Assembly: GCF_017795745.1 (NCBI RefSeq)
Contig: NZ_CP059067.1
Coordinates: forward strand, 62,001-126,000
Source of the DNA: Rhizobacter sp. AJA081-3
GTDB lineage: Bacteria; Pseudomonadota; Gammaproteobacteria; Burkholderiales; Burkholderiaceae_C
Length of the DNA stretch: 64,000 nt
Direction of reading: 5' to 3'
A program made the translations under genes and the position numbers. Below the pieces are notes generated by a model that saw nothing but the letters and a program-made list of their open reading frames with translations, made no database searches and was not told the origin of the DNA. Position 1 is the stretch's first letter. Each line of letters starts with the position of its first letter. Below are positions 24,800 to 35,152 of this stretch, piece after piece.

Positions 24800-26242
24800 C
24801 TACAGGAAGCCGAGCGTGCGCGCGCTGCCGAAGTTGCGCAGGTTGGGCAGCACCGTGTCGAGCTGCGCGTCGGTGGTGCCGAACCACGAGAGCAGCGTGG
24901 CCGCGTACTGGTCGACCGAGCTGGTCGGGATCCAGCGGCCCTGCAGTTCCCAGCTGTCCACGCCCACGTCATCGGGGCCGCCCAGGGCCAGCGTCGGATA
25001 GGTGCCGTAGGTCAGCCCGCCCTTGACGGCGCCGCCGATCACCAGGTGCTGGCTGCCCCAGGCGTGGTCGGTTCCGCTGCTGTTGTTCGGCGTGAAGGTG
25101 CGGCCGAAGTCGCTCTGCGTGAATGCCGTGACCGCGTCGGCCAGCGCCATCGCCTTCATCGCGTTGTGGAAGCAGGCGAGCGAATCGCCCACCTCCTTGA
25201 GCAGGTTCGCGTGGTTGCCCACCAGCACGGTGCCGCCGATCTGGTTGGCATGGGTGTCGAAGCCGCCGAGCTGCGCGAAGAAGATCTGCCGGTTGCCCTG
25301 CACCGTGGCGTTGCCGGCGATCAGCTTGGCGATCTGGTAGAGCTGTCGCGGCAGCCCGTCGGCCACGTCGCCATTGGCGATCAGCGGCGCGAAGGCGTTG
25401 TCGATTGCCGCCACCGAGCCGGCCTGTCCCGGCTTCACCTTGATCAGCGCGGCCAGCCGGTCCGACATCGCGAAGGCGTCGCGCTGCATGCCCGCGTAGA
25501 CCTCGGCGAGGTCGTTGTCCTGCGCCTGGCTGTAGATGCCGCGCAGCGCCGTGGCGCGCGCCACCAGGGGCGCGTAGCCGGTGCGCCAGCTCTCGGTGCC
25601 GAGTTCATAGGCGCCGAAGGTAGCGCCCGGCTCGGGCAGCACCAGCGGGGCGGAGAGCGCAGACAGGCCGAAGCGCCCATTGCCGCCCACCGAGATCACC
25701 GGGTTGGCGGTGGCCAGCGTCTGCGCGGCCCGCCCGCCCCAGCCGGTGCGCGTCAGCGCATCGGTGCTGCCGCTCTCCCACAGCACCTGCTGGTCGCTGT
25801 GCGAGAACAGGTTGTCGGGCACCAGGTCCGAACTCTCCGGCGCGGCGCGGAACTGCGCCTTGGTCATCGGCTGGAACAGCGGGCCGACGTTGAACACCGG
25901 TGCGAGCCGGCCTTCGGCCCAGGCCGGTGCCAGGGCCGCCAGCGAGGGGTGCAGCCCGTAGCCGCTGCTGCCCAGGCCGATCAGGCTGGCCTGCGGCAGC
26001 GCCAGTGCCCTGCGCACCGCGCTGTACTGGCCGTAGCGCGTGGCGTCAGTGGGCACGATGGTGTTGAGGCCGTCGTTGCCGCCGTACAGGAAGATGCACA
26101 CCAGCGCCTTGTAGTCGGCGGCGCGCGCCGGCGCGCCCGGCAGCAGCAGGTTGCCGATCGTGCCGGCGCCGGCGGTGGCGCCCATCAGGCCGGCGAGCTT
26201 GAGCCAGTGGCGGCGGTTCATCGTCATGGCGCGGGCTTTCAT
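24800..26242 (-). CDS. DUF1501 family secreted protein
   Basis: 480 residues. The N-terminus MNRRHWLKLAGLMGATAGAG is a twin-arginine-type signal ending about PARA. Mature landmarks are ICIFLYGGNDGLNTIVP-like (seen as VCIFLYGGNDGLNTIVP), HSDQQVLWESG, GGFDTHANQ and FGRTFTPNNSSGTDHAWGS. These match DUF1501, a sulfatase/alkaline-phosphatase-like fold of unknown reaction with conserved Asp/His/Asn metal-type residues. It starts at the ATG that overlaps the DUF1800 stop by four bases, an almost universal pairing for these two families. Export is probably by Tat in folded form. Confidence 0.9.
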   Translation of the reverse strand: MKARAMTMNRRHWLKLAGLMGATAGAGTIGNLLLPGAPARAADYKALVCIFLYGGNDGLNTIVPTDATRYGQYSAVRRALALPQASLIGLGSSGYGLHPSLAALAPAWAEGRLAPVFNVGPLFQPMTKAQFRAAPESSDLVPDNLFSHSDQQVLWESGSTDALTRTGWGGRAAQTLATANPVISVGGNGRFGLSALSAPLVLPEPGATFGAYELGTESWRTGYAPLVARATALRGIYSQAQDNDLAEVYAGMQRDAFAMSDRLAALIKVKPGQAGSVAAIDNAFAPLIANGDVADGLPRQLYQIAKLIAGNATVQGNRQIFFAQLGGFDTHANQIGGTVLVGNHANLLKEVGDSLACFHNAMKAMALADAVTAFTQSDFGRTFTPNNSSGTDHAWGSQHLVIGGAVKGGLTYGTYPTLALGGPDDVGVDSWELQGRWIPTSSVDQYAATLLSWFGTTDAQLDTVLPNLRNFGSARTLGFL

Positions 26243-28194
26243 CGCTGCACCTGGAAGGCGGGGGTGGCGAACACCAGGTAGGCGGCCTGCTTGACGCGCT
26301 CGCTCTGCCAGGTGCTGCTGGTCGAGGCGTTGAAGGCCTCGACGGCGGTGATGATCTGCGTGCGCGTCGCGCTCGGCAGCGCGGCGCCGGTGGCCAGCAC
26401 CGAGAGGCGGTCGACGAGCCTGGCGGCATCGGCCGCATCGGCCTCGAAGGGCGCCGTGTTCACCGCCGTGCCGAAGGCGCCAGGCACGCCGGCCTCCGCC
26501 GTCGAGCCGCCCCAATAAAGCAGGTAGGTGAGGAAGTTCAGCCGCTCCAGCGCCGAGTTGGCGTTGTGGATGCCGAACTGCGGGCCGACCATCGTGGCGT
26601 TGCCCGGCACCGGGTAGTCCGGCGGGTAGAAGTTGAACACCGAGGGCGGCCGGAACACATGCTGGCGCAGCACCTCGCCCCACCACCAGGCCAGCGCCTC
26701 GCCGTCGCTGCGGCCGTTCAGCGCACGCAGCACGCCGGTGAACATCAGCGTCGGCTCGCGCAGCTTGCCGGCGCGGCGCGCGGGCGTGTCGCCGCGCGCC
26801 TCGGCATCGAGCAGCACGGCCGCCACGGTGGCGGCCAGGTCGCCTCGCGTGCCGGCACCGAAGGTCCGGCCCTCGGCGGCGTAGCTGCCGGCGATGAAGG
26901 CCGCGGCCACGCGCTGCACGTAGGCCGGGCTCGGGTTGCTGCTGACCAGGTGCTGGATCAGCTGCTTTCCGATGAAGGGCGCGGTGTTCGGATGCTGCAT
27001 CACGCTGTCGAGCACCAGCTCGAGCGCCGTCGCCGGCGTGCTGTTGGCCGGCTTGCTGACGCCGCCGAGCAGCGGGCGCACGCTGGTGTCGTGGTAGCGC
27101 GTCACCGGCACCATGTCGCCCCCGTAGTACTGGCAGTTCGCGCCGGTGGGCCAGCAGCCGTAGGCGGTGGTGCCGCCGGCCGGGTAGGTCCAGCCGGTCA
27201 TCGCATAAGCGTAGTTGCGCACCGTCTCGTTGTTGTAGGTCGGCGAGCAGGCACCGCCCTTGAGCGAGCCGTCGGCATTGAGCTCGCAGGTGCCGATCGA
27301 GAACAGCTGCAGCAGCTCGCGCGCATAGTTTTCGTTCGGGGCGGCCTTGTCGTTGTTGGCGTTGTTGAGGAAGTCGCCCATCACCGGCGACAGCGTCACC
27401 TTCTTCAGCACCTGCCGGTAGTTGGTGAAGGCGTTGTCGAGCAGCGTGTTGTGGTAGTTGCGCAGGCCGTAGGTGCCCTCGACGTCGAGGTTGTTGACGA
27501 CGACGATCTGCTGCAGCGCGAAAGCCACGCGCTGCCGCAGCTGGTCGGCGTTCTGCGTCGCGTTGCGGTAGAAGTCCCAGGTCAGCGGCTGGCTGGAGAA
27601 CCAGTCGCGCCAGCAGTTCGCGCCGGCGTAGGCGGGCAGGTCGCAGAAGAAGGTGTTGCTGGTGTTCTTGTGGATCGCGTCGCCGCTGCCCGCGGTGTAG
27701 CGCGAGGCCGAGACGCCCATCTGCGCGGCGATCCAGGCGGAGCGGCCCTGGGTGCGGATGTCGGCGATCAGTGATTCGGTGGCGCCGAAGCTGGCCTGGT
27801 CGGCCAGGCGAAACGCGTCGCGAACGCTGACGGGCGCAGGAGCCGGCGCGGGTGCAGGAGCCGGCGCGGGGGCCGGTGCGGGTGCAGGGGCCGGCGCGGG
27901 GGCCGGTGCGGGTGCAGGGGCCGGTGCGGGCGCAGGGGCCGGTGCGGGCGCAGGAGCTGGCGCGGGCGCAGGAGCTGGCGCGGGCGCAGGAGCTGGTGCG
28001 GGCGCAGGAGCTGGTGCGGGCGCAGGAGCTGGCGCGGGCGCGGGCGCGGGCGCAGGAGCTGGTGCGGGCGTGCCGCCCGTGGGCGGAGATGCACTGTCGG
28101 TCGCGCCGCCGCCGCACGCGGCGAGCAGTGCGGTCGCGCCCACCGTCGCGAAGAGCGAGCGCAGGGTGCTCGCCGTATGTACTGCCTTGCGCAT
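26239..28194 (-). CDS. DUF1800 family lipoprotein with long Pro-Ala linker
   Basis: 651 residues. The lipobox LLAAC puts the lipidated cysteine at residue 27. Residues 43-121 are 79 strictly alternating Pro and Ala residues. The DUF1800 domain follows from DAFRLADQASFGATESLI, with landmarks WRDWFSSQPLTWDFYRNA, LRQRVAFALQQIVVVNN, PNENYARELLQLFSIGT and KQLIQHLVSSNPSPAYV. DUF1800 proteins are secreted, of unknown function, and encoded with DUF1501 partners. The Pro-Ala tract would be an extended tether holding the domain well away from the membrane. An ATGA overlap couples it to the DUF1501 gene. Confidence 0.9.
   Translation of the reverse strand: MRKAVHTASTLRSLFATVGATALLAACGGGATDSASPPTGGTPAPAPAPAPAPAPAPAPAPAPAPAPAPAPAPAPAPAPAPAPAPAPAPAPAPAPAPAPAPAPAPAPAPAPAPAPAPAPAPVSVRDAFRLADQASFGATESLIADIRTQGRSAWIAAQMGVSASRYTAGSGDAIHKNTSNTFFCDLPAYAGANCWRDWFSSQPLTWDFYRNATQNADQLRQRVAFALQQIVVVNNLDVEGTYGLRNYHNTLLDNAFTNYRQVLKKVTLSPVMGDFLNNANNDKAAPNENYARELLQLFSIGTCELNADGSLKGGACSPTYNNETVRNYAYAMTGWTYPAGGTTAYGCWPTGANCQYYGGDMVPVTRYHDTSVRPLLGGVSKPANSTPATALELVLDSVMQHPNTAPFIGKQLIQHLVSSNPSPAYVQRVAAAFIAGSYAAEGRTFGAGTRGDLAATVAAVLLDAEARGDTPARRAGKLREPTLMFTGVLRALNGRSDGEALAWWWGEVLRQHVFRPPSVFNFYPPDYPVPGNATMVGPQFGIHNANSALERLNFLTYLLYWGGSTAEAGVPGAFGTAVNTAPFEADAADAARLVDRLSVLATGAALPSATRTQIITAVEAFNASTSSTWQSERVKQAAYLVFATPAFQVQR
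27832..28068 (-). repeat. Degenerate tandem repeat coding for the Pro-Ala tract
   Basis: The 237-base tract is built from variants of CCGGCGCGGG, GCAGGAGCTGGC and GCAGGGGCCGGT (plus-strand view), repeated in six-base multiples and in larger 24-30-base blocks. Third-position changes vary while the Pro-Ala coding stays unbroken, so the coding is under constraint. Such a tract could change length by slippage without frameshift if whole six-base units are gained or lost. Confidence 0.9.
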
Positions 28195-28351: not shown

Positions 28352-29836
28352 TCACGAGCCGCGCCGGGCCGCGGTGGCCGAGGCCCGGGCGTTCAGCGCG
28401 TTGGGGAAGTACAGCGCCGTCAGGCTCGCGGTGTGCACCGGCACGAAGCCCTCGCGCTGCGGCGTGTCGCCGGAAAAGCGCCGCCAGTCGCGCAGCCAGT
28501 GGATGGCGTCGCAGGTCTCCAGCAGGCCCAGCGTCTCGCGGTCGCCGACGAGGATGCCCTGCACGCGCAGGCCGAGTTCGCTGCGCGCCGCCTCCAGGTG
28601 CGCCTGCGTCGCCGGCGTGCAGCCGAACTCGCCGTCGCTGACGATCAACAGGTCGGCACCGCTCCAGCGCGCCTCGCGCACACGCTGCACCGCGCGTTCG
28701 ATCGGCGCCTGCACGTCGGTGCCGCCGTCGAAGCTCTGGCCGAGCAGCTCGAGCAGCGCATCGAGGCCGTCCTGCGGCCGCTCGGCCGGGCGCAGCTCGC
28801 GCTCGATCACTTCGTCCGGCCCGCCGAAGGCGATGAGCAGGCAGCCGCGCTTCTCGCGATGTGCGGTGCGCAGCGCCTCCAGCACCACCGCCTTGGCGAT
28901 GTTCTCCGGCGCACCCTGCATCGAGCCCGAGGTGTCGACGGCCAGGATGATCGGCCCGCGTTCCAGCCGCTGCGGCTGCGACACGCTGCGCTGCCGCGCA
29001 CGCCCTTCGGGATCGGGCACGTGTTCGATCAGCACGGCTTCGCTCTGGTAGGTGAGCAGCCGGCTCTCGGCCAGCCGCGCACGCCACAGCTTGTGCAGCA
29101 CCGGGTGGCGGATCTGCAGGGCCTCGCTGCCCAGCATGCGCTCGATGCGGTCGGAATGGCGGATGCCCATCAGTTCGCCTGGGGCGTCCGGCAGGCGCGT
29201 CTCGCGCTCGTGCAGCGGCAGCGGCGTGTCGAGCGCCGCCTGCGCTGCCAGGGCGGGCGGACGATCGGGATGATGGTGGGCGCGGCCCAGGCTGCGGATC
29301 AGCTCGGCCAGCGGCTGCAGGTGCGCCAGCAGCGCGCTGATGCGCTGGGCCTCGCGCCATTCGCGCGCCGTGAGCCGGCCGCGCAGTTCGTCCCAGCGCA
29401 GGTGGGCGAGGTCGCCCAGGCCCTGCATCAGCGCGAGCGCTTCTTCCCAGCCGCTCTTCTCGACGGCCCACTCCTCGCGAAAGCCCTGCGCGCTCGCCGC
29501 GATGGCCTGGGTGCGCGTCAGCCGCGGCTGCAGGTCGATGATGCGATCCAGGTGCCACAGCATCGTGCGAAGCACCTGCTCGGCGAGCGCAGGGACGCCG
29601 TGGGTGAGTTGCGGCAGGTCGAGTTCACCGATGGCCGTGCGCAGCGGCATCAGCGCCTGCGCATCGCCGAAGTCCAGCCTCTCGTCAGGCAGCTGTCCAC
29701 GCTCCAGCGCGTCGAGCCAGCCGCGCAGGTCGGCCAGCCGCGCGGCGCTGTTGCCGCAGGCAGTCACCAGCCCCGGCAGCCACAGCTCGCGCGGCAGGGC
29801 GGCGAGCCGGTCGTAGGGCGCGTCGATCGGCCCCAT
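28352..29836 (-). CDS. ViaA-like VWA-domain protein
   Basis: 494 residues. A helical N-terminal region of about 290 residues precedes a C-terminal von Willebrand A domain. The MIDAS motif is DTSGS at residues 301-305, followed by GGTD and the VSDGEFG aspartate. The tail IHWLRDWRRF is like the end of ViaA. In E. coli ViaA works with the AAA+ ATPase RavA and affects respiratory complexes and aminoglycoside sensitivity. Here the RavA-like gene lies just upstream with a four-base gap. I chose the ATG at 29834-29836 over a TTG five codons upstream that overlaps the ATPase stop. Confidence 0.85.
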   Translation of the reverse strand: MGPIDAPYDRLAALPRELWLPGLVTACGNSAARLADLRGWLDALERGQLPDERLDFGDAQALMPLRTAIGELDLPQLTHGVPALAEQVLRTMLWHLDRIIDLQPRLTRTQAIAASAQGFREEWAVEKSGWEEALALMQGLGDLAHLRWDELRGRLTAREWREAQRISALLAHLQPLAELIRSLGRAHHHPDRPPALAAQAALDTPLPLHERETRLPDAPGELMGIRHSDRIERMLGSEALQIRHPVLHKLWRARLAESRLLTYQSEAVLIEHVPDPEGRARQRSVSQPQRLERGPIILAVDTSGSMQGAPENIAKAVVLEALRTAHREKRGCLLIAFGGPDEVIERELRPAERPQDGLDALLELLGQSFDGGTDVQAPIERAVQRVREARWSGADLLIVSDGEFGCTPATQAHLEAARSELGLRVQGILVGDRETLGLLETCDAIHWLRDWRRFSGDTPQREGFVPVHTASLTALYFPNALNARASATAARRGS

Positions 29837-29840
29837 GGAC

Positions 29841-31223
29841 TCAGGCGCCAATGGCGATGGGCTCCGGCGCCTGCTGCGGCAGGGCCTCGTCGATCGGCAG
29901 CGCAGCGAAGCCTTCGCGCGCGTGCGCCAGACGGGCGAGCAGCGAGTCGAGGATGGCGATCGTGCGGCGGCGGTTGCCGGTCAGCGTGGCCGCGAGCGAG
30001 GGGGGCAGCCAGACGCGGCCCTCGAGAGCGCGCTCCAGTTCGGCCAAGGCCGCGCGCAACGCGGGCAAGGGTTCGGCGGCACGCGCCGTGACCTCATCGA
30101 CCTGGGCGAGCCGCGCGGCCACGTGCACCGGGCTCCAGCGGCGGCGCATCGCGTCTTCCAGCGAGGTGGTGACCATGCGCAGCATGCCGGTCTCGCCGGC
30201 GCCGCCGATGGCACGCGCCAGCGCGAGCTTGCCGGCGCTGTCGTCGGCGCCGTCGGCCGGCATGGAGAGCTCGATCTCCAGCTGCTTCTCGAAGGCCTCG
30301 ACGGCGCGGGTGAGCCAAGGCGCCTCGTGCACCGTGGCCTGCGCCACCTCGGCGATGAACCACTCGTGCAGCGCCGGCACCTGCGCCGGCTGCGCAGCCA
30401 CCACATAAGGCACGAGCCAGAGGTCGAGCGTGTCGACGGCGGCGCGGCCTTCGGTGTGCGCAGCGCTGCGCAGCAGGGCGACGAGCTGCCGCCAGCGGCG
30501 GTCCGACACCGTGATGCCCTGCGACGCAGCGAAGCCACGCAGCGCGCCCAGCGCCTCCAGCACACCGGCGGGCAGTTCTACCTGCTCGCGTTGAACCAGC
30601 GCGTCGCGCAGCTCGTCGTTCGACACCGGCACGGCGGCGGCCGGCGCGCCGGGCTGCAGCGTCAGCAGAGCGGCAAACGCCGCATCGCTGACGCCGGCCA
30701 CCGGCACCCGCACCAGGAAGCGGTCGTGGAAGGCCATCAGCGCCTCTTCGGCCGGCACCTCGTTGGTCGCCCCGACCACGCAGATCAGCGGCGTGCGCAC
30801 GCGCGCGCTGCCGTTGTCGAACTCGCGCTCGTTGAGCAGCGTGAGCAGCGCGTTGAGGATCGCCGAATTGGCCTTGAACACCTCGTCGAGGAAGGCGATG
30901 CTGGCCGTGGGCAGGTAGCCGTCGACCAGGCGCTCGTAGCGGTCGTGCTCCAGCGCCTTCAGCGACAGCGGGCCGAACAGCTCCTCGGGAGTCGAGAAGC
31001 GCGTGAGCAGCCGCTCGAAGTAGCGTGCGCCACCGAAGGCGCGGTGCAGCCGCCGCGCCAGTTCGCTCTTGGCCGTGCCCGGCGGGCCGATCAGCAGCAC
31101 GTGTTCGCCGGCGAGCGCGGCGAGCAGCGCCAGCCGCACCGCGGTATCGCGTTCGAGCAGGCCCAGTTCGAGCTGTGCGACCAGCGCGCGCCAGCGCGCG
31201 CGGTCGGTGAGGGCGGCATTCAT
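29841..31223 (-). CDS. RavA-like MoxR-family AAA+ ATPase
   Basis: 460 residues. Walker A GPPGTAKS (residues 46-53), Walker B region ASIAFLDEVFKANS, sensor I in CVVGATNEVPAEE, and a sensor-2 region follow. STPEELFGPLSLKALE is the typical MoxR/RavA pore-loop segment. E. coli RavA is 498 residues with an inserted LARA domain; the part after residue 300 here is shorter and less conserved. It is probably a hexameric remodelling ATPase working with the VWA partner encoded four bases downstream. An exact RavA orthology is inference from fold and pairing. Confidence 0.87.
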   Translation of the reverse strand: MNAALTDRARWRALVAQLELGLLERDTAVRLALLAALAGEHVLLIGPPGTAKSELARRLHRAFGGARYFERLLTRFSTPEELFGPLSLKALEHDRYERLVDGYLPTASIAFLDEVFKANSAILNALLTLLNEREFDNGSARVRTPLICVVGATNEVPAEEALMAFHDRFLVRVPVAGVSDAAFAALLTLQPGAPAAAVPVSNDELRDALVQREQVELPAGVLEALGALRGFAASQGITVSDRRWRQLVALLRSAAHTEGRAAVDTLDLWLVPYVVAAQPAQVPALHEWFIAEVAQATVHEAPWLTRAVEAFEKQLEIELSMPADGADDSAGKLALARAIGGAGETGMLRMVTTSLEDAMRRRWSPVHVAARLAQVDEVTARAAEPLPALRAALAELERALEGRVWLPPSLAATLTGNRRRTIAILDSLLARLAHAREGFAALPIDEALPQQAPEPIAIGA

Positions 31224-31277: not shown

Positions 31278-33326
31278 TCACTTGTAGAGCACCTGCGGCA
31301 GCCACAAGCCGATGGCCGGGAACATGTACAGCAGGAAGATCGCCAGCACCTGGATGCCCATGAACGGCAGCATCCCCGCGAAGATCTGGTTCAGCGTCAC
31401 GTGCGGCGGGCTCACGCCCTTCAGGTAGAACGCGGCCATCGCCACCGGCGGGCTGAGGAACGCGGTCTGCAGGTTCAGCGCGACGAGCAGGCCGAAGAAC
31501 AGCGGATCGACACCGAAGTTGTCGAGCAGCGGGATGAAGATCGGCATGAAGATGACGATGATCTCCGTCCACTCCAGCGGCCAGCCGAGCACGAAGATGA
31601 TCGCCTGGCTGAGCAGCAGGAACTGCGTCTTCGACAGGTTCATCGACATGACCCAGCGCTCGACCAGTTCCTGACCGCCCAGCAGCGCGAAGGCGGCAGA
31701 GAAGATCGCGCTGCCGACGAACAGCCAGCAGACCATCGCGCTGGTCTTGGCGGTGAGGAACACCGACTCCTTCACCATGGTCAGGTTCAGCTGCCGGTAG
31801 GCCGCCGCGAGGATGAAGCCGCCGAAGGCCCCCACCGCCGCTGCCTCGGTGGGCGTGGCCAGGCCGAAGACGATGGAGCCGAGCACCGCGAGGATCAGGA
31901 TCACCAGCGGAAAGAAGCTCGCCAGCAGCATCTTGAAGACCTCCAGGCGCTGGAAGCTCAGCATCGCGTAGAGGCCGAACAACGCGATCGCGCCCACGCC
32001 CAGCCCGATCCAGAAGCCACGACTCGCGCTGCGACGTTCGGGTGCGGCTTGCGGTGCGGCATTGGCGTTGCTGCCTGTCGTGGCACTCGGCGGCTCCTTC
32101 ACGCCGCCGGCGGCGCCGGGAGGCTCCTGCACGCCAGACCCGGGTGGCTCCTTGAGTCCGCCGCTGGCACCCGCAGGCTCCTGAACGCCACCGGCTGCCG
32201 GCGGCTCCTTCAAGCCGCCGCTGGCGGCGGGAGGTTCCTGCAGCCCGCCGGCGCTCGGCGGCTCCTGCAAGCCACCCGAAGAGCCCGGAGGCTCCTGCAC
32301 GCCGCCACTGGCGCCGCGCCCTTCGCGCAGGCTGCCTGCGGGCTCGGCCAGGCCGCCGGACTGCATCGCCGCCACCGGGTCGAGCGGTTCGGTGGCGGAG
32401 CGGTACGACAGCCCGGCCACCAGCACGAACACGATCGCCGGCAACAGCGTGATGCCGAGCTGCTTGAGGATGTAGTCGGCCGGCACGCCGGCGTTGCGCG
32501 AGCCCTTCAGGGCTGTCAGCAGCGCCGGCAGCGCGCGGTTGGACACGGCGTCCGAGATGCGTTGCGTCATCGGCGGCAACGGGACGAAGCGCGCCTCTGC
32601 GGAGAGCGGCGGCGCCATCTCCGGCTTCAGCTTGGCCAGGATGATCACGTAGACGATGTACAGGCCGGCCAGCATGATGCCGGGGAAGAACGCGCCGGCA
32701 TACAGCTGCACCACCGACACGCCGGCCGTGGCGCCGTAGACGATCAGCAGCACCGAGGGCGGGATCAGGATGCCCAGGCATCCGCCCGCGGTGATGGCGC
32801 CGGCCGACAGGCGTACGTCGTAGCCGCCCTTGAGCATCTGCGGAAAAGCCAGCAGGCCCATCAGCGTGACCACGGCGCCGACGATGCCGGTGGCCGTGGC
32901 GAACACCGCGCAGGTGAACAGCGTGGCCACCGCCAGCGAGCCCGGCACGCGGGCCAGCGCGAGGTGCAGCGACTTGAACAGCTTCTCGATCAGGTTGGCG
33001 CGTTCGACGAGGTAGCCCATGAACACGAACAGCGGGATCGAGATGAGCACGTCGTTGCTCATCACCTTGAAGGCCGACTGCACCATCAGGTCCAGTGTCT
33101 TCGTCGTGTCTTCCTCGTAGGCGAGCCAGGTGAACACCATGCCCATGCCCATCAGCGTGAACGCGGTGGGAAAGCCCAGCATGATCGCCACGACGACCAG
33201 CGCCAGCATCATCAGGCCGAGGTGGCCGTTGGTGATGGTCGGCGCCGAGACCAGCATCACCAGCGTGCCGGCGACGATCAGCCCCATGATGATGAAGCCG
33301 AACCAGAGTTCCCTGCGGATCTTCAC
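31278..33326 (-). CDS. dctM: TRAP transporter large permease (DctM) with a repeat-rich insert
   Basis: 682 residues with a GTG start overlapping the dctQ stop (GTGA). The N-terminal half holds DctM motifs such as GFPTAFTLMGMGMVFTWLA, SIPLFVFMGYLVERA and ITAGGCLGILIPPSVLLIVYG. The C-terminal half holds FGLATPTEAAAVGAFGGF and LNLQTAFLSPPVAMAAFYLKG. Standard DctM is about 430 residues; this is of the longer class with extra central helices. Between two of those helices, at about residues 321-412, lies a soluble insert of eight or nine Gly-Gly-(Leu/Val)-(Gln/Lys)-Glu-Pro-Pro repeats. It forms a sodium-driven uptake complex with DctQ and DctP. The effect of the insert is unknown. Confidence 0.93.
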   Translation of the reverse strand: MKIRRELWFGFIIMGLIVAGTLVMLVSAPTITNGHLGLMMLALVVVAIMLGFPTAFTLMGMGMVFTWLAYEEDTTKTLDLMVQSAFKVMSNDVLISIPLFVFMGYLVERANLIEKLFKSLHLALARVPGSLAVATLFTCAVFATATGIVGAVVTLMGLLAFPQMLKGGYDVRLSAGAITAGGCLGILIPPSVLLIVYGATAGVSVVQLYAGAFFPGIMLAGLYIVYVIILAKLKPEMAPPLSAEARFVPLPPMTQRISDAVSNRALPALLTALKGSRNAGVPADYILKQLGITLLPAIVFVLVAGLSYRSATEPLDPVAAMQSGGLAEPAGSLREGRGASGGVQEPPGSSGGLQEPPSAGGLQEPPAASGGLKEPPAAGGVQEPAGASGGLKEPPGSGVQEPPGAAGGVKEPPSATTGSNANAAPQAAPERRSASRGFWIGLGVGAIALFGLYAMLSFQRLEVFKMLLASFFPLVILILAVLGSIVFGLATPTEAAAVGAFGGFILAAAYRQLNLTMVKESVFLTAKTSAMVCWLFVGSAIFSAAFALLGGQELVERWVMSMNLSKTQFLLLSQAIIFVLGWPLEWTEIIVIFMPIFIPLLDNFGVDPLFFGLLVALNLQTAFLSPPVAMAAFYLKGVSPPHVTLNQIFAGMLPFMGIQVLAIFLLYMFPAIGLWLPQVLYK
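32085..32365 (-). repeat. Tandem repeat coding for GG(L/V)(Q/K)EPP units inside dctM
   Basis: Eight clear units and one degenerate unit of 27-30 bases encode GGVQEPPGSS, GGLQEPPSA, GGLQEPPAAS, GGLKEPPAA, GGVQEPAGAS, GGLKEPPGS, GVQEPPGAA and GGVKEPPSA. In plus-strand view the unit is close to GGCTCCTGCAAGCCGCCG. The copies differ at third positions and in the spacer, so they are not a recent expansion, yet the GG..EPP core is kept. Confidence 0.9.
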
Positions 33327-33955
33327 GACTTGCCCCCCTGCACGTAGTTCGCGGGAGCAACGTACTTGTCGAGCGCGGCGATGTCTTCGTCCTTCACGTG
33401 GACCATCTCCTTGAGCTTGTCGACGTCGACTTCCTCGACATCGTGTTCGCGCGACGGCCATTCGCCGTCACGCAGGCAGGTGATGCAGCGCACGATCTCC
33501 ACGATGCCCTGCAGCAGCAGCATGCCGCCGGCGACCGGGATGACGAACTTGAAGGGGTACAGCGGCAGCGCCGTGGCCGAGAAGGTCTGCTCCCGGATCG
33601 CCAGCGCCTCGTTGGCGTAGCCCCAGCCGGCGTAGGTGAGCGCGACGATGCCCGGCAGGAAGAAGATCACGTACAGGATCAGGTCGATGGTGGCTTGCGT
33701 GCGCGGCCGGAAGAAGCCGTAGAGCACGTCGCCGCGCACATGGCCGTTCTTGCTCAGCGTGTAGGCGCCGGCCATCATGAACAGCGTGCCGTACAGCATG
33801 ATCTGCACGTTCAGGTTCCAGTCGTGCGGGTTGTTCAGCACGTAGCGCGAGAACACCTCGTAGGTGATCAGGAACGTGAGCACGACGATGAACCAGGCGA
33901 ACAGCTGGCCGAGCCAGGTGGAGAGGCGGTCGACCGCCAACAGCAGTTTCTGCAT
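33323..33955 (-). CDS. dctQ: TRAP transporter small permease (DctQ)
   Basis: 210 residues with four membrane helices. The first is LGQLFAWFIVVLTFLITYEVFSRYV, carrying the conserved EVFSRYVL motif, and the second includes NVQIMLYGTLFMMAGAYTL followed by NGHVRGDVLY. The C-terminal 45 residues are acidic and soluble, longer than in most DctQ proteins. Its GTGA overlap with dctM shows tight coupling. The ATG at 33953-33955 fits the first helix. Confidence 0.92.
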   Translation of the reverse strand: MQKLLLAVDRLSTWLGQLFAWFIVVLTFLITYEVFSRYVLNNPHDWNLNVQIMLYGTLFMMAGAYTLSKNGHVRGDVLYGFFRPRTQATIDLILYVIFFLPGIVALTYAGWGYANEALAIREQTFSATALPLYPFKFVIPVAGGMLLLQGIVEIVRCITCLRDGEWPSREHDVEEVDVDKLKEMVHVKDEDIAALDKYVAPANYVQGGKS

Positions 33956-33984
33956 TGAGTTTCCTCGCGAGGGCAGCACAAAGT

Positions 33985-34021
33985 AAAAGGGCTGCCGGCC
34001 GATGGTGCCGGCCGGCAGCCC
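33985..34021 (-). terminator. Strong hairpin between dctP and dctQ (attenuator or mRNA stabiliser)
   Basis: A perfect 12-base-pair stem (33989-34000 with 34010-34021) with a nine-base loop lies between the dctP stop and the dctQ start. On the minus strand it is followed by TTTTAC, a short U-run. Partial termination or 3'-end protection here would make binding protein more abundant than the membrane subunits, a known arrangement for binding-protein-dependent transporters. Confidence 0.75.
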
Positions 34022-34039
34022 GTGCGGCCCGGGTCGCGC

Positions 34040-35152
34040 TTACTTCTTGCCGAAGTAGTGGTTGTAGGCCATCGTGAAGTCGACCATGTAGTCGTTCTGC
34101 CAGGCGCCGGCGCGCTGCGCGAAGGCCTTCTGGCTCTCCAGGATCTTCTTGAACATCGCGTTCTCTTCGCTCTTCTTGGCGATGATCTTGTCCCACGACG
34201 CGAGCTGCGCGCGCAGGATGGCGTCGGGCGTCTTGTAGAAGTTGACGCCGGCCTTCTTCAGCTCGATGTAGTCCTGCGAGTTGCGCTGGATCGCCTTCCA
34301 GCTCATGTCGGCGCTGGCGGCCTGCACGGCGTAGTCGATGATCGACTTGAGCTCGGCGGGCAGGGCGTTGAACTTGCCCTTGTTGAACAGGATCTCGAAC
34401 TGCTCGCCCGACTGGTGGAAGCTCTGCAGCATGCAGTTCTTGCTGACGTCGGGGAAGCCGAGCAGGCGGTCCGAGCTGGCGTTATTGAACTCGGCGCCGT
34501 CGATCAGGCCGCGGTCCAGGGCCGGCACGATCTCGCCGCCGGGCAGCGGGTTCACCGCGGCGCCCATGTCGGTGTACATGTCGACCGCCAGGCCGACGGT
34601 GCGGAACTTGATGCCCTTGATGTCTTCGACGCGGGCCACCGGCTTCTTGAACCAGCCGAACGGCTGCGTCGGCATCGGGCCGTACAGGTAGGACACGACG
34701 TCGAGGTTCAGCGTCTTGTAGATCTCGTCGAGCAGCGCCTTGCCGCCGCCGTAGTTGTGCCAGGCCAGCACCATGTTCGGGTCCATGCCGAAGGCCGGGC
34801 CGGAGCCCCACAGCGCCAGCGCCGAATTCTTGCCGTAGTGGTAGGCCACCACGCCGTGGCCGCCGTCCAGCGTGCCCTTGGAAACGCCTTCGAGCAGTTG
34901 GAACGCGGGCACCACGGCACCGGCCGGCAGCACCTCGATCTTCAGGCGGCCACCCGCCATGTCGTTGACTTTCTTCGCGAAGTCGGTGGCGTACTCGTGG
35001 AAGATGTCCTTCGAGGGCCAGGTGCTCTGGAAGCGCAGCGAGGTGGTCTGGGCATTCGAGACCATCGGCGCGGCCATCGCGCCGGCGGCCACGGTGCTGG
35101 TGGCGGCGGTCTTCAGGAAGCGGCGGCGCGGGGCGGGCGAGGGCTTGCTCAT
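34040..35152 (-). CDS. dctP: TRAP transporter substrate-binding protein (DctP/TakP-like)
   Basis: 370 residues. A twin-arginine-like signal (RRRFLKTAATSTVAAGAM) ends near SNAQT. The mature protein begins LRFQSTWPSKDIFHEYATDFAKKVN. Conserved elements include IKGIKFRTVGLAVDMYTDMGAAVNPLP-like sequence with the arginine that usually binds the substrate carboxylate, and ALDRGLIDGAEFNNASSD. The overall layout resembles the TakP group that binds 2-oxo acids or related carboxylates; the exact ligand is not visible. A GGAG site precedes the ATG. Confidence 0.92.
   Translation of the reverse strand: MSKPSPAPRRRFLKTAATSTVAAGAMAAPMVSNAQTTSLRFQSTWPSKDIFHEYATDFAKKVNDMAGGRLKIEVLPAGAVVPAFQLLEGVSKGTLDGGHGVVAYHYGKNSALALWGSGPAFGMDPNMVLAWHNYGGGKALLDEIYKTLNLDVVSYLYGPMPTQPFGWFKKPVARVEDIKGIKFRTVGLAVDMYTDMGAAVNPLPGGEIVPALDRGLIDGAEFNNASSDRLLGFPDVSKNCMLQSFHQSGEQFEILFNKGKFNALPAELKSIIDYAVQAASADMSWKAIQRNSQDYIELKKAGVNFYKTPDAILRAQLASWDKIIAKKSEENAMFKKILESQKAFAQRAGAWQNDYMVDFTMAYNHYFGKK

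Follow-up and report, generated by a model that had tools for sequence, protein, structure and literature searches.

The TRAP large permease SiaM (PpSiaM, 7qha) is described, in the accessible part of PMC9971032, as an N-out/C-out protein whose first hairpin enters the membrane from the cytoplasm, with SiaP docking on the periplasmic face of SiaQM. For TakP, which serves as receptor for alpha-keto acids in the TakPQM system of Rhodobacter sphaeroides, residues 326-365 form a swapped dimer helix, and a figure legend models the dimer with one monomer on a membrane partner, in a membrane-bound pathway (PMC1839085, excerpts). The TAXI-TRAP permease VcGluQM carries a claw domain, DUF3394, which the available text presents as a model and predicts to contact the binding protein (PMC11574862). 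The way in which a free binding protein arrives at a TRAP permease and departs again is unsettled. OpuA and other ABC importers in which the binding domains are fused keep these modules at the membrane.

Here, a TRAP operon was analyzed in a window of 64,000 nucleotides from Rhizobacter sp. AJA081-3. The kind of transporter is known; the repeat-bearing hairpin insert in its permease appears to be new. Among the top-ranked results of our literature searches, which covered few subscription papers, no description was found of inserts, repeats, extra helices or proline-rich or disordered loops in TRAP permeases, and top-ranked results on tethered binding proteins, TakP/TakM and motif strings held no description of such an insert. 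This is in line with the initial annotation, which knew of no described function for it. Coupling of a binding protein to its permease by a motif tether was likewise not seen in the literature searched.

The Operon and Its Large Permease

The operon runs in the order DctP-DctQ-DctM on the minus strand (35152..31278), and DctM thus lies together with genes for DctP and DctQ, as PpSiaM does. The initial annotation had placed the permease gene correctly at 31278-33326; it is read from 33326 to 31278. The Pfam DctM profile matched over two stretches (231.3 bits, cut-off 23.8) and the NCBIfam dctM model scored 274.1 against a cut-off of 268.45 for the same permease; with both halves covered by the DctM profile, the protein is a TRAP large permease (Table 1). 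Genome contigs were scanned, and in the best 80 of 569 loci, a selection that favors insert-bearing proteins and in which each locus aligned over nearly the whole query, DctP was found beside DctM in 77 and DctQ in 78.

Table 1. Features of the operon and of the DctM protein, in window coordinates.
Feature	Position	Strand	Evidence
DctP binding protein, twin-arginine signal, TakP-like	34040..35152	minus	profile and structure-database matches
DctQ small permease, 210 aa	33323..33955	minus	Pfam DctQ, 93 bits
DctM, TRAP large permease, 682 aa, GTG start	31278..33326	minus	Pfam and NCBIfam profiles
Extra N-terminal helix after K/R-rich N-terminus, ~residues 9-28	33243..33302	minus	hydropathy, charge
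First DctM half, ~residues 35-231	32634..33224	minus	profiles; query 48-242 aligned to PpSiaM 12-202
K/R-rich loop, ~residues 232-288, presumably cytoplasmic	32463..32633	minus	charge; SiaM topology (PMC9971032, accessible part)
Inserted helix TM6a, ~residues 289-308	32403..32462	minus	hydropathy
Linker, residues 309-436, presumably periplasmic and disordered	32019..32402	minus	composition, charge
Nine [LV]xEP repeat units, residues 324-413	32088..32357	minus	pattern search; Tandem Repeats Finder
Inserted helix TM6b, ~residues 437-456	31959..32018	minus	hydropathy
Second DctM half, ~residues 464-682	31281..31937	minus	profile; query 475-680 aligned to PpSiaM 218-422

Both halves of PpSiaM align with the query; however, the matched stretches are joined by 15 residues (203-217) in PpSiaM and by 232 in the query, which hold two helices and the repeat linker. 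Relatives lacking the insert have 12-14 residues at the site of the query's 223. Between the DctM halves, the K/R-rich loop leads into a helix, which a linker of about 128 residues joins to a second one; hydropathy predicted, in agreement with the first observation, that the repeats sit between two extra membrane helices, whose ends were set by hand from the best-scoring windows (290-308 and 440-458). The 128-residue linker consists of approximately 20% Gly, 17% Ala, 16% Pro and 9% Glu. The claw of VcGluQM is likewise an accessory part between extra permease helices, and is periplasmic as the DctM linker presumably is, but according to the available text it is globular, mainly beta and a C-terminal extension (PMC11574862), whereas the DctM insert is a central repeat linker. 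In Pfam, DctM showed no match to DUF3394, only DctM itself and a sub-threshold match to SARAF, and is therefore not of the claw type. In three orthologues (L021, L022, and L025) a further insertion of about 60 residues was observed in the second DctM half, near query residue 510; it has hydrophobic stretches and is perhaps another helix pair.

A Conserved Motif in a Fluid Array

The window gene contains nine [LV]xEP[PA] units, with cores at window positions 32088-32351 (residues 326-413), and Tandem Repeats Finder placed the array at 32088-32315. Six units are exact GG(L/V)(Q/K)EPP and the others read SGVQEPP, GGVQEPA and GGLAEPA; the initial count of eight clear and one degenerate repeat was therefore slightly generous. 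Silent sites between units are well diverged, with pS of 0.56 as compared to pN of 0.15 (pN being zero at E and the first P by construction, since the search pattern fixes both residues), which bears out the earlier view of an old repeat with constrained amino acids. A sequencing or assembly error, which had been named as a possible source of the repeats, is excluded because the insert occurs in many independent genomes.

In the strain's own genome, a loose DNA pattern gave 10 matches, 5 of them inside the dctM gene (reversed control: 8), and a stricter pattern gave 5, with 4 inside the gene (reversed control: 3). The sole strict match outside dctM (C1:4488334-4488356), coding for GGLAEPPG, is probably not real because its frame differs from that of the 1004-aa ORF at this place. 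A search for the array at E 0.01 returned one place, the dctM gene, in each of 10 of the 30 genomes; the search is insensitive and missed DctMs with few copies (e.g., in G008, G011, and G037), therefore single motifs outside DctM may exist.

Conservation of the motif was analyzed over 96 linkers with a summed match score of at least 590, six repeat copies of loci and the insert-free L027 being left out; lower scores were obtained for, among others, L020, L025, and L028, which have the insert, and L029-L033, which lack it. The strict motif [LVI]xEPP occurs 333 times in these linkers (shuffled mean 3.1) and is present in 83 of them (shuffled mean 3), and a looser form is found in all 96, representing 94 distinct proteins (shuffled mean 36); because the sequences are related, these counts are not independent. 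The consensus of the 471 loose instances is G(59%)-G(74%)-L(69%)/V(29%)-x-E(87%)-P-P(78%)-G(47%)/A(22%), the first P being imposed by the search pattern, which also limits what can stand at L/V, E and the second P. The motif is conserved over Burkholderiales and Rhodocyclales. Moreover, a second, LQEMG-like motif was found in 60 of the 96 linkers (shuffled mean 5.6), often soon after TM6a as read from the listing. GLQEMG and GLQEPPG look alike, and one might guess that the array grew from the LQEMG-like motif.

Comparison of the repeat number among relatives, which the initial annotation had proposed, showed that the array is fluid and that the single motif is kept: nine copies in the window gene compare with eight in the closest relative, and eight, nine, nine and six copies were counted in L009, L010, L011, and L021, respectively. 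Over the 96 linkers, the loose copy count ranges from 1 to 13 and the linker length from 74 to 158 residues, the two being correlated (r 0.83). Both copy number (rho 0.50, n 112) and insert length (rho 0.43) correlate with the GC content of the locus. The low-GC loci keep the motif at one to three copies: in the six lowest (43.5-47.5%), [LVI]x[EALVP]PP is present in six of six and the strict EPP form in four of six, as read from the listing. What is conserved is the single motif G-[LV]-x-E-P-P-G/A, not the whole array. Compared with the closest relative, dN/dS was 0.11 for the linker and 0.09 for the core; over nine relatives it was 0.11-0.52 and 0.09-0.35, respectively, with the linker equal or higher in each and its pS also raised in each, although alignment of the repeats makes the linker dN/dS and pS values rough.

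Distribution and Origin of the Hairpin

Genomes beyond those of the scan were added, and sorting was performed on 149 distinct DctM proteins of 158 rows, after two rows below the score/length limit had been dropped and with loci L002-L008 and repeat copies left out; an insert was labeled EPP-type when [LVI]x[EAVLP]PP occurred anywhere in it. This search of homologues for length and repeats at the insert site, as suggested initially, detected the insert in 113 proteins, 107 with and 6 without an EPP-type motif, and no insert in 36. Among the six, L115 and L123 keep a GLAEP form, L130, L180, and L181 have LQEMG-like or LEELG-like motifs in place of the EPP type, and L172 has the hairpin without a motif, its linker being about a dozen residues long. 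As 36 of the 149 relatives lack the insert and L172 is motif-free, TRAP transport in general can do without it.

Sorting and phylogeny indicate that the insert extends beyond this one protein and is an inherited feature of a DctM subfamily. In a quick tree, in which 43 of 146 inner branches are weak, the insert occurs in two clades, and eight insert-free rows branch with the larger one; the nearest named relative is Piscinibacter defluvii (L038). A single group of all 113 insert-bearing rows, defined with the tree already in view, was not rejected (p-AU 0.417). The hairpin flanks of the two clades match each other, with hhalign probabilities of 97.6 and 94.7 in comparisons that each used one profile. 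Given these results, two origins of the insert are unneeded, and the simplest reading would be one gain with later losses.

Predicted Topology and a Candidate Partner

Prediction of the side that the insert faces had been called for, and helix counting and charge both point to the periplasm. Since SiaM is N-out/C-out in the accessible description, helix counting puts the junction of the DctM halves in the cytoplasm; with two added helices, the linker would therefore be periplasmic. The distribution of positive charge is consistent with this: K+R per 100 aa amounts to 34.3 in the N-terminus (94 orthologues), 15.0 before TM6a and 19.9 after TM6b (96 orthologues), as compared to 4.4 in the linker, which has a net charge of -11.2 (96 orthologues); the last 12 residues before TM6b, at 9.7 per 100, contain more positive charge than the linker does. 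Homology and charge thus suggest a periplasmic linker, and its composition that it is probably disordered.

The solved proteins best matching DctP are a ketoacid-binding protein (7ug8) and TakP (2hzk), and it is through DctP that the system resembles TakPQM. DctP aligns to the TakP chain 2hzk over 3-353 of 365 (E 1.3e-42); as the dimer helix comprises residues 326-365 in the excerpted TakP paper, the alignment would take in the greater part of it, provided that both numberings correspond, and judged by alignment DctP would have the long C-terminal dimer helix of the TakP type. A binding role for the insert is plausible, and the most economical partner of the motifs would be the DctP dimer, because DctP is the operon's soluble periplasmic product and SiaP, in the part of PMC9971032 at hand, docks on that same face.

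Several DctP residues separate insert-bearing from insert-free systems (e.g., A113, N201, and D310). A113 is invariant where the insert is present (79 of 79 and 3 of 3), whereas the insert-free systems have S (12 of 12). DctP and DctQ residues that track the insert were rejected as evidence of partnership: they are confounded with substrate, as the insert-free systems may carry others, and only two close insert-free DctPs (L162 and L163) entered the comparison. At residue 310, the systems with insert have Asp (79 of 79 and 3 of 3), and of the 12 without insert 9 have Lys or Arg.

Possible Role of the Linker

Our tentative proposal, put forward as possible, is that the hairpin linker is disordered and acts as a multivalent tether, its motifs binding a partner in the periplasm, for which the DctP dimer would be the simplest choice. 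In a TakM-like TRAP permease, TM6a, linker and TM6b would form a membrane hairpin that separates the inverted halves and exposes to the periplasm a long, probably disordered linker, acidic and rich in Gly, Ala and Pro, in which repeated short linear motifs of the consensus G-G-[L/V]-x-E-P-P-[G/A] would be weak binding sites acting jointly. Such a tether might keep the binding protein near the permease and make it more concentrated there, an effect that fused domains have in some ABC importers; the OpuA type differs in that folded domains are covalently joined, whereas the DctM insert offers short motifs. Copy number would drift by repeat slippage, more so in GC-rich genomes, with at least one motif retained. 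The wider notion that a secondary transporter catches and holds a dimeric binding protein via many weak peptide sites, with copy number tuning affinity, is slightly more doubtful. With its conserved motif, the probably periplasmic loop in permeases of TakP-like systems lends ideas of a membrane-bound pathway a concrete part.

Alternatively, the hairpin might be structural and the linker a passive spacer, an entropic low-complexity loop grown by slippage in GC-rich genomes, with the motif as a by-product. The correlation of copy number and length with GC, the higher substitution in the linker than in the core, the units that differ between close relatives, the richness in G, A, P and E and the pure Pro-Ala linker found elsewhere in the window are all in accordance with this. 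However, the motif is retained in low-GC loci, L/V, E and P recur although silent sites are well diverged, and shuffled linkers seldom yield the motif. We consider a plain spacer somewhat less probable than the tether.

The motifs could also dock on another periplasmic partner, such as an envelope or outer-membrane protein or a chaperone, and so place or stabilize the permease. They resemble a docking peptide, nothing ties them to DctP and the DctP comparison is confounded; against this, MoxR/VWA genes were found in only 1 of 80 loci (best 80 of 569, within at most 3 kb on each side), no neighbor was conserved among those tested and no candidate emerged from them. We consider such a partner slightly less probable than the spacer. 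Least probable appears an action inside the complex, with motifs folding back on DctM or DctQ to regulate docking or elevator movement as a loose claw domain. It would be supported by the modelled accessory domain of VcGluQM, predicted in the available text to steady docking from between extra helices (PMC11574862), and by the alike hairpin flanks of both insert-bearing clades, but the wide ranges of linker length and copy number fit a flexible reach better than one fixed contact.

Neighboring Features of the Window

Directly downstream of DctM (window 28352-31223) lie genes for a MoxR-type ATPase and a VWA protein, which we take to be RavA/ViaA-like; a functional tie to them was rejected given their presence beside the operon in only 1 of the best 80 loci, within at most 3 kb on each side. 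Further along, on the minus strand, an ORF of 651 aa (28194..26239) whose start resembles that of a lipoprotein contains near its N-terminus a pure Pro-Ala dipeptide repeat of about 240 bases (window 27833-28068). This is a simple linker of low complexity, unlike that of DctM with its motifs.
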